Shown piece after piece: positions 2,470 to 7,004 of a DNA stretch of 64,000 nucleotides. The position numbers and the translations under genes are program-made. The notes beneath the pieces are model-generated. The model did not search any database, was not told the origin of the DNA, and saw only the letters and a list, made by a program, of their open reading frames with translations. The DNA comes from Pseudovibrio exalbescens (GTDB taxonomy: Bacteria > Pseudomonadota > Alphaproteobacteria > Rhizobiales > Stappiaceae): positions 930,001-994,000 of the forward strand of contig NZ_JAQZAJ010000001.1 in NCBI RefSeq assembly GCF_028737195.1, written 5' to 3'. Numbering within the stretch: position 1 is the stretch's first letter; each line of letters starts with the position of its first letter.

Positions 2470-2631
2470 TTAGCCCTCCCGATCTGGATACAGGTTCATC
2501 AAATGACGCAGCTCGTTCCCGCCAAGCGGCGCGTCCCGCCGCATAGCCCCCAGCGCAATCGCCAGTTCCCTTGGGGTTGCCTGCCAGAAATCGCGCGGAC
2601 ACCAGCCAAGGCGCGAGAAAGCCAAATGCAT
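2470..2631 (-). CDS. GTA tail assembly chaperone, TIGR02216/DUF2376-like (g10.1), probably made by frameshift from g10
   Basis: The frame encodes SFPWEEAMHLAFSRLGWC followed by DFWQATPRELAIALG, which matches the short GTA chaperone family (W..LM..GLG, then FW..TP.EL). The only ATG in frame is at 2631, inside the conserved region and after the family tryptophan. Reading upstream to the preceding in-frame TGA (about 2775) I find no ATG, GTG, TTG, CTG or ATT codon. The upstream part is therefore best explained by -1 frameshifting at the heptamer at 2679-2685, giving a g10-g10.1 fusion of about 183 residues. Coordinates here cover only the ATG-initiated 53-codon portion. It lies one base ahead of the tape-measure ATG. 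Confidence 0.75.
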   Translation of the reverse strand: MHLAFSRLGWCPRDFWQATPRELAIALGAMRRDAPLGGNELRHLMNLYPDREG

Positions 2632-2675
2632 GGCCTCTTCCCACGGAAATGACCGAGCCTGTGGTGCCGCGCCTC

Positions 2676-3020
2676 CTACGGGGGGCTTTGGGAGCCCTCG
2701 CTTGTGGTGCCTTGATCTTTGAAGGTTACCGCCAGCAGGGCCTTCACGGCCCGCGCCATCCCCACCACTCCTTCAGGGCAGGTCATGGCTTGCAGCTGCG
2801 CGTTGCTCACTTCGTTGCCGCCCCCACGCAGGCCCGCTCCGATAATGCGTGTCAGGTCTTGGGTGCCCAGTTTGTGCTCGGCAAACCGTGTCACCAGCGC
2901 TTCCAGGCTTTCAGCGGCATAGGCATCTTCCAGTTCTGCCAGTGCGCCAAGGGTAAGCGCCATGGACCAACGCCTGCCATCAAGCTCAATGTCCACTTCA
3001 CCGCGATGTCTGTTCGCCAT
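2676..3020 (-). CDS. GTA tail assembly chaperone, gp10 family (TAC_11)
   Basis: A 114-residue protein that starts MANRHRGEVDIELDGRRW and continues TLGALAELEDAY, the characteristic N-terminal pattern of GTA gp10 proteins. The ATG at 3020 was chosen because the family pattern starts right there; the frame stays open further upstream but crosses the tail-tube gene. It should hold the tape measure while tube subunits polymerise. Its last codons form the slippery sequence described separately, so it is probably the short product of a two-product frameshift gene, like lambda G. Confidence 0.88.
   Translation of the reverse strand: MANRHRGEVDIELDGRRWSMALTLGALAELEDAYAAESLEALVTRFAEHKLGTQDLTRIIGAGLRGGGNEVSNAQLQAMTCPEGVVGMARAVKALLAVTFKDQGTTSEGSQSPP
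2679..2685 (-). other. Candidate -1 programmed frameshift site (C CCC CCG) at the end of g10
   Basis: On the minus strand g10 ends AGC CCC CCG TAG. The seven bases before the stop have the X XXY YYZ form. A -1 slip reads CCC CCC GTA GGA and enters the frame of the downstream chaperone exactly. A GAGGG sequence (2695-2699), resembling a Shine-Dalgarno stimulator, lies 9 bases upstream of the heptamer. Lambda G/GT and many other long-tailed phages make their tail chaperone fusion this way, so the position and gene pair fit. Slippage itself is not shown. Confidence 0.65.
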
Positions 3021-3030
3021 GTCCCGACCC

Positions 3031-3447
3031 CTATGCGCTTGGAGAGAAGGTGAGTTGCCCAGCGGATTCCAGTGAAATCTCATAGGTAATCTCGCCGTTA
3101 AATTGCCCAGAATATTCAAGGCCTGAGATTTGAAAGGGGCCTTCCAGCACGCCGAAATCGGGCAGCACCACCTGCCATGTGGCAAAGGTGCCGGAGAAGA
3201 ACACCTCGCGCACTGTGCTGTCGGCCGCCGCATCGCGAAAGACGCCTGCCCCCGAAAGGCTTGCACTTCGGGTGCCGCTTTGCGCCAGCAGCTCCCGCCA
3301 CCTGCCAGCGCTGTCTGCATTGGTAATGTCCGCCGCAACCGCGTTGAGCGCGAACCGCCGCGAGCGCAGGCCAGCCACGGTTTCAAACGTGCCGGAGCCG
3401 GTCTGGTCCAGTTTCAACAGCATGTCCTTGCCAGCTTGTGCTGCCAT
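3031..3447 (-). CDS. GTA major tail tube protein, TP901-1 family (g9-like)
   Basis: A 138-residue tail tube subunit. It has the family opening MAAQAGKDMLLKLD, the central ITNADSAGRWRELL block, and the closing FNGEITYEISLESAG beta-rich segment. The ATG at 3447 is preferred to one four codons upstream because GGAGGT sits at normal spacing before it. Subunits stack into the tail tube through which DNA passes. It is placed between the tail terminator and the chaperone genes, as in RcGTA. Confidence 0.9.
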   Translation of the reverse strand: MAAQAGKDMLLKLDQTGSGTFETVAGLRSRRFALNAVAADITNADSAGRWRELLAQSGTRSASLSGAGVFRDAAADSTVREVFFSGTFATWQVVLPDFGVLEGPFQISGLEYSGQFNGEITYEISLESAGQLTFSPSA

Positions 3448-6701: not shown

Positions 6702-7004
6702 TCACGCAGTCTGAGGGCCATTCGCTCTGGCACCCTTATCTCGCCTGCAGCAGATCTCGCGTCTCGTATCGCCGTCCTTTGCTCCGCATGCCGTGCGCAG
6801 CGCCGCCCCGTTGGGCAACACACCTTTTGCGCCCGGCATATCCGATGCCTGACCGGCCCCGCGCTTTAAAGACTTCCTGTAGCGCCGCCACGCAAGCTGC
6901 GCCTTCAGGCGCGGGGCCGCACACCCAAGTTGCTTGAGCGCCACCCCAACATCCTGCCACTTGCTGGAGGGCAACTCTCCGTAAAAAACCGCTAGTGTTC
7001 GCAT
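6702..7004 (-). CDS. Hypothetical protein between portal and prohead protease
   Basis: A 100-residue frame opening MRTLAVFYGELPSSKWQDVG, with CGGGAG just before the ATG. I do not recognise a family. The second half is rich in arginine, lysine and cysteine (CCRRDKGARANG), which is unusual for the cluster. Codon choice looks coding, but an overlapping frame on the same strand (6736-7020) is also open. It lies in the GTA operon where RcGTA carries only a small head gene. Could be a basic DNA- or head-associated protein; no function is assigned. Confidence 0.4.
   Translation of the reverse strand: MRTLAVFYGELPSSKWQDVGVALKQLGCAAPRLKAQLAWRRYRKSLKRGAGQASDMPGAKGVLPNGAALRTACGAKDGDTRREICCRRDKGARANGPQTA

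Follow-up and report, generated by a model that had tools for sequence, protein, structure and literature searches.

A g10/g10.1 tail chaperone pair of an RcGTA-like cluster, probably expressed by programmed -1 ribosomal frameshifting

How can the second tail assembly chaperone of a GTA be translated when its reading frame offers no start codon ahead of its domain? The question arises in a 64 kb window (the whole stretch of Pseudovibrio exalbescens DNA analysed here), in which profile matches to Pfam and NCBIfam families outline an RcGTA-like head-tail cluster on the minus strand, from 10004 down to 120. The genes run in the order terminase, HK97-type portal, protease, capsid, connector, tail completion, g9, g10, g10.1 and g11, followed by a distal tail protein (Rcc01695 family) and then a phage/GTA baseplate hub, the cluster as a whole running to the window edge; this is the gene order of RcGTA-like clusters, with the tape measure protein falling below the cut-off of its own profile. 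A 100-residue open frame at 6702-7004 (minus strand), with the portal region on one side and the prohead protease on the other, matched nothing in Pfam or NCBIfam at E 0.01; it is possibly an insertion into the cluster, or else not a gene.

The four genes around the junction all lie on the minus strand. The major tail protein g9 (3031-3447) belongs to the TP901-1 family (PF06199, E 5.8e-43; TIGR02126 over cut-off). Tail assembly chaperone 1, the 114-residue zero-frame product g10 (2676-3020), matches PF11836 (GTA gp10 / Phage_TAC_11) with E 4.5e-28 and 97.6 bits, above the curated cut-off of 27.8, and a genome search found a single copy. Tail assembly chaperone 2, g10.1 (2470-2679; 69 codons and a stop), is the putative -1 frame part of a fusion and matches PF09550 (Phage_TAC_6) with 61.2 bits against a curated cut-off of 23.4, at E 1.2e-16 over 2679-2473, so that the -1 frame is indeed that of g10.1; TIGR02216 (rcc01693 family, NCBIfam) scored 45.1 bits, under its curated cut-off of 56.1. 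The tape measure protein g11 (1896-2468) matches the NCBIfam family RcGTA_tape at E 1.1e-44, its 152.7 bits falling short of the cut-off of 220; it has only 190 residues, possibly reflecting a shorter tail. The AlphaFold model of g10 has a pLDDT of 87, and its structure matches in BFVD are predicted viral proteins named phage tail assembly chaperones (best E 2.4e-4). Sequence and fold searches of PDB gave no significant match for g10, and g10.1 had no BFVD match below E 0.1 (best E 0.17). Two BFVD proteins stood on the match lists of both g10 and g10.1, A0A0K1LMC7 (247 aa; E 3.2e-3 and a weak 0.17) and A0A345ARN5 (195 aa; E 2.2e-2 and a weak 2.1), and may be G-T fusions of phages. A collection of named phages yielded two matching records for g10 and two for g10.1.

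The junction itself has the anatomy of a -1 frameshift site. From its ATG at 3020, g10 runs to the codons CAA AGC CCC CCG TAG, and the candidate slippery heptamer C_CCC_CCG (2679-2685) abuts the stop (2676-2678), exactly as the sequence-only reading had it. The -1 frame is open from 2772, below a TGA at 2773-2775, so the heptamer, read as X_XXY_YYZ in the zero frame, falls within the overlap. After a slip the reading would be CCC CCC GTA GGA GGC, then the whole PF09550 domain and a TAA at 2472-2470; 114 and 69 codons add up to the proposed fusion of 183 residues, with the junction SPP-VGG, besides the 114-residue protein. A GAGGG at 2695-2699, 9 bases 5' of the heptamer, is Shine-Dalgarno (SD)-like and a candidate stimulator. 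A codon listing agrees that the -1 frame holds no ATG, GTG, TTG, CTG or ATT between the TGA at 2775-2773 and the ATG at 2631-2629, and it holds no ATC, ATA or ACG there either; the downstream frame thus has no start codon before its domain. Two open frames able to give products with a shared N-terminus therefore lie between the tail tube and tape measure genes, as in lambda-type G/GT pairs, and both products are probably made.

That first ATG of the -1 frame (2629-2631) encodes residue 17, inside the first predicted helix of g10.1 (residues 13-23), which a start there would cut. The codon of Trp 13 (2641-2643) lies upstream of it, and this is the conserved tryptophan noted earlier: it is kept in at least 90% of 58 aligned g10.1 sequences (the alignments, of 60 g10 and 58 g10.1 sequences, contain the window and were put together by hand out of 128 cluster representatives). 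Both Trp 13 and the start of the helix thus precede the ATG, and the -1 frame between the g10 stop and Met 17 encodes PVGGAAPQARSFPWEEA. In MW091529.1 and MW462191.1 the public annotation of g10.1 (L384 3405-3563; L385 3384-3563) starts at the Met after the conserved FPW, and the start of the domain is dropped. Both are phage-labelled records, 18 kb and 103 kb long, in which the genes follow an RcGTA-like order and the junction reads AAACCCT-TGA.

Taken alone, the site in the window is weak evidence, because CCCCCCGTRR is expected 0.5 times by chance in 64 kb. Over the 4.39 Mb genome the pattern CCCCCCGTAG has a single occurrence, at the g10/g10.1 junction, and the reversed control pattern has six. 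CCCCCCG as such is rarer in the window than in shuffles (5 observed, 12.8 expected). The weight of the case comes from sequence comparison with relatives, and the signal at the level of the family is stronger than that of the single site.

The comparison covered the g10 neighbourhoods of 374 loci, taken from viral contigs and named genome contigs as well as from related genomes, and gave 369 g10/g10.1 pairs and, after 35 duplicates were dropped, 334 unique junctions; five loci lacked a usable pair, two copies of the window (L001, L164) were removed before counting, and L376-L385 stand outside the counts. The search for start codons opened 20 codons ahead of the g10.1 profile match and closed one codon after its first position; any start lying farther upstream went uncounted. 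A heptamer had to be a strict XXXYYYZ located in g10 beyond the conserved domain, where the -1 frame is open, so L077 (Phyllobacterium sp. 628), whose -1 frame has a stop, counts as heptamer-free; it keeps AAACCCT-TGA at the junction, and the conserved Trp codon of its -1 frame is TGA. The control gene was an open frame of at least 100 codons ending near the g10 start and taken as g9, present in 258 loci. The two domains lie in separate open frames in 333 of the 334 pairs, with g10.1 in the -1 frame relative to g10 in 312, in +1 in 17 and in the zero frame in 5; the 22 junctions outside the -1 frame comprise 17 with ATG/GTG, 3 with TTG and 2 with no start. The sole exception to separate frames, L141 (G030), has g10 and the first part of g10.1 in one open frame that then stops, with a TGA and a TAA inside the g10.1 match, and looks like a decaying GTA.

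The heptamers of g10 tails are concentrated in the frameshift-competent phase, with 248 there against 17 and 18 in the other two; in the body of g10 the phases stand at 42 : 19 : 38 over 31,334 codons. In the 258 loci with a control gene, the last 20 codons of g10 hold 192, 14 and 14 heptamers by phase, and the last 20 codons of the upstream gene 2, 1 and 2. One representative from each of 39 clusters at 60% identity still gives 24 : 0 : 1. An in-phase heptamer occurs in 121 of the 139 junctions with no ATG, GTG or TTG, far above 500 synonymous shuffles (mean 46.1, maximum 58), the remaining 18 lacking a strict heptamer; in 25/39 TTG-only junctions (shuffle mean 5.3, maximum 12); and in 24/134 ATG/GTG junctions, also above shuffles (mean 9.7, maximum 17). 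This makes 170 of 312 junctions in the -1 frame. Common forms in relatives are CCCTTTC, TTTCCCT, AAACCCT, GGGAAAG and CCCTTTG. The window's CCCCCCG is rare, being shared only with L152 (2/312), which also carries a second heptamer. CCCTTTC could stem from coding PFPW, because the g10 frame enters the g10.1 domain in part of the set; leaving out the 84 negative-gap, possibly dual-coded junctions gives phases of 104 : 7 : 6, and a heptamer in 44/58 no-start against 23/133 ATG/GTG junctions. Conservation of the site is thus beyond chance at the level of the family, mixed within the genus and not universal.

Heptamer and start codon are strongly anti-correlated in raw counts, and among the cluster representatives the heptamer is found in 12/18 no-start against 2/16 ATG/GTG junctions. 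Corrected for the tree, the association of heptamer with missing start was not significant in an underpowered comparison of 11 supported independent pairs, of which on average 3.7 went in the expected direction, 1.9 in the opposite one and 5.4 showed no difference; counting TTG as a start gave 4.5 against 3.4 in 16 pairs, and omitting negative-gap loci 2.6 against 1.9 in 10. The tree (FastTree) is built on about 160 residues and weakly supported, and its minimum of 45 start-state changes is not to be read as 45 events. Differences in the junction peptide by codon position were 21, 21 and 27 over eight no-start pairs, few pairs being usable.

The start-bearing junctions have an architecture of their own. 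In 111 of the 134 ATG/GTG junctions the start overlaps the g10 stop (position -1), and in 79/134 the g10 tail is short, at most 5 codons past the domain; in 123 of the 139 no-start junctions it spans 10-40 codons. Both modes are seen in the window's family, in its order and elsewhere in the class, where 24 junctions outside the order divide into 12 without a start and with a heptamer, 9 with ATG/GTG, 2 with neither start nor heptamer and 1 in another frame. Because both modes require the -1 frame, its conservation alone is no proof of frameshifting; and because many relatives have a start without a heptamer, frameshifting is one of two modes and not a fixed feature. The proposal that GTAs keep the frameshift of phage tail chaperones is therefore strongly favoured at the level of the family, as the junction comparison called for by the sequence-only reading shows over the 334 unique junctions, but in its general form it gives way to two modes.

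The same mixture runs through the window's own genus. Among its 15 other members, 11 have an ATG/GTG start, 9 of them in the -1 frame and 2 in another; one of the 9 (L154) also has a heptamer, CCCAAAG. L151 has no start and carries AAACCCG before TAG, and L021, L138 and L147 lack both start and heptamer. Many relatives, most members of the genus among them, thus combine an independent start with a missing heptamer, which had been named in advance as an observation that would speak against frameshifting, but the window itself is start-free before the ATG inside its domain and by its sequence appears to belong to the frameshift mode. L021, L151 and the window share the -1 reading PVG right after the shift point, at equal spacing to the domain, a suggestive likeness, among three sequences only.

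We consider it likely that the g10/g10.1 pair of the window is expressed by programmed -1 ribosomal frameshifting, giving a g10-g10.1 fusion, and comparison makes this much the best reading. Most ribosomes would terminate at the TAG and yield the 114-residue g10; in a minority, tRNA-Pro on CCC and CCG would slip one base back to CCC and CCC, and these ribosomes would proceed in the -1 frame to the end of the 183-residue fusion. If the pair works like lambda gpG/gpGT, g10 would cover the tape measure protein, and recruitment of the tail tube protein would fall to the g10.1 part.

Other readings of the junction have to account for the same comparison. The most direct is that g10.1 is translated alone from the ATG at 2631, by reinitiation or independent initiation, as a 53-residue protein with no fusion: the codon is present, starts overlapping the stop are the rule in ATG/GTG junctions, and the corresponding Met is the annotated start in the two records mentioned above. 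Such a protein, however, would lose Trp 13 and the front part of helix 1, its ATG lies 44 bases past the g10 stop, and the excess of in-phase heptamers would be left unexplained; we regard this as improbable. Nor does an event on the transcript or in the data fare well. RNA polymerase slipping on the six-C run could add one C in some transcripts and so join the frames, and the site is a homopolymer, but six C are few for such slippage, and since the common heptamers of relatives, from CCCTTTC and TTTCCCT to AAACCCT, GGGAAAG and CCCTTTG, are non-homopolymers, it is not the shared mechanism; for the window we rate it very improbable. A frame break that merely reflects a misread C run, or the decay of the gene, would fit the proneness of homopolymers to error, the one-frame pair of L141 that then stops and the stop in place of the conserved Trp in L077. 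Relatives with other sequences nevertheless keep the same -1 arrangement, separate frames are almost without exception in the set, and the window has an intact g10.1 domain, which leaves this explanation scarcely credible.

A subtler rival retains the shift and changes its mechanics, with a single tRNA slipping at C_CCG before the TAG and no tandem slip on the heptamer. It draws on L021, which has neither heptamer nor start and keeps CCG TAG and the -1 reading PVGG, and on the report that C_CCG is among four motifs shifting 1.8-3.6-fold over background with a pseudoknot (PMC4066793). Against it, the window has a full heptamer, full heptamers are enriched in the family and often stand away from the stop, and the same source in its excerpted text rates such tetramers barely or not at all shift-prone (PMC4066793); we think it unlikely, if anything a little more so than the start at the internal ATG.

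For programmed frameshifting on the heptamer, the tendencies reported from E. coli are favourable in part. According to the available text of PMC4066793, C_CC.C_CC.G belongs to a group of 18 patterns whose shifting exceeds 0.10% when no stimulator is present and which are under-represented in the genes of E. coli; once stimulators are added, the highest efficiencies are those of C_CC.A_AA.G, G_GG.A_AA.G and A_AA.A_AA.G, and C_CC.U_UU.C is rated high-level. A_AA.C_CC.A, G_GG.C_CC.A and C_CC.G_GG.C stay below threshold there even with a pseudoknot (PMC4066793); A_AA.C_CC.U is common among the junction heptamers here. The GAGGG may act as a stimulator. Of the 121 no-start loci, 69 have an SD-like 4-mer between 18 and 4 nt ahead of the heptamer, more than in shuffles (38.8 on average, maximum 49), but the stretch at 32-18 nt, taken as a control, is high as well (48 against 34.7, shuffle maximum 48). 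Before overlapping starts, 38/110 loci have such 4-mers at 15-4 nt (20.2 in shuffles, maximum 30), and the control stretch has 7 against 7.4. A downstream stem-loop gave no clear signal as stimulator, in the window or in sampled loci, under single-letter shuffles and pseudoknot-free folding: z in the window was +1.4, +0.8, -0.9 and -1.3 for 40, 60, 80 and 100 nt, and its mean was -0.54 in 60 of the 121 no-start loci (9 under -2) and -0.15 in 60 of the 110 ATG/GTG loci (4 under -2).

The closest known counterparts are phage tail chaperones. In lambda, G/GT lies between the major tail protein and the tape measure protein, the position of g10/g10.1 in the window. Lambda gpG/gpGT and the -1 frameshift conserved in the tail assembly genes of long-tailed phages, as described in the consulted parts of PMC5009743, resemble the window in the direction of the shift and in having a short product and a longer fusion; -1 shifting in lambda yields the two products at 30:1, with G attaching to the tape measure and T to the tail tube protein (PMC5009743). 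The likeness is one of position, shift and product layout; unlike lambda, the system of the window sits in a GTA cluster, many of whose relatives have an overlapping start. Among alphaproteobacterial hosts, RcCronus (host Rhodobacter capsulatus) has GGGAAAC directly before a TGA at gp11/gp12, upstream of the tape measure gene as in the window, and the chaperone gene is annotated in its record as a two-piece join; it differs in a weak PF11836 match (E 0.015, below cut-off). The phages phiCbK (AAAAAAC) and Colossus (GGGAAAC) likewise have a -1 frameshift heptamer in a chaperone gene before the tape measure gene (PMC3556154, in part); they are likened to g10 by gene position and heptamer. Two genes of an HK97-like chaperone cluster show 6% and 7% frameshifting according to the excerpted text of PMC3711429, and RcZahn, unlike most of the R. 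capsulatus phages covered there, is described in PMC8601537, as excerpted, as being without clear signs of chaperone frameshift.

Excerpts of PMC11409702 treat RcGTA g10 and the small gene downstream (g10.5) as tail chaperones 1 and 2, separate genes, and do not mention a frameshift at g10; the likeness to the window rests on PF11836 for g10 and on shared role names. The words chaperone, frameshift and g10 do not occur in the searched text of the RcGTA structure paper (PMC7296036), and a g10 frameshift is not reported in the parts seen of PMC9765227, PMC10299305, PMC9022992, PMC10783043 and PMC10885494, nor among the matches listed in the open-licence literature searched. The kind of system is thus known from phage tail chaperones and, within those open-licence papers as far as they were covered, unreported for GTAs.

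If frameshifting operates here, the product list of many GTAs misses one protein, the g10-g10.1 fusion, and annotation can truncate g10.1, as in MW091529.1 and MW462191.1. Frameshifting would fit an origin of GTAs in phages whose tails were assembled on a lambda-like programme, and relatives appear to differ in their ability to make the fusion, which offers a direct test. We lean slightly towards a wider reading, in which the chaperone pair of RcGTA-like clusters throughout Alphaproteobacteria alternates between a frameshift state and a coupling state, lineages having switched many times. The frameshift state would perhaps combine a long g10 tail, a heptamer, no start and a covalent fusion, and the coupling state a short tail, ATGA or GTGA and separate proteins, a division that we favour by about as little. 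If it holds, a GTA needs no strict covalent G-T fusion of the kind made by lambda, and the switch would amount to an experiment by nature on what the fusion does in tail assembly.

Some loci depart from the usual junction. In L040, L225, L278, L318, L345 and L356, about 200-280 nt separate the g10 stop from the g10.1 domain, with the -1 relation still kept; the spacer of L040 is repeat-like in appearance. In L133 (G009), about 100 nt around the g10 stop, GTGA start included, are present as a tandem duplicate.
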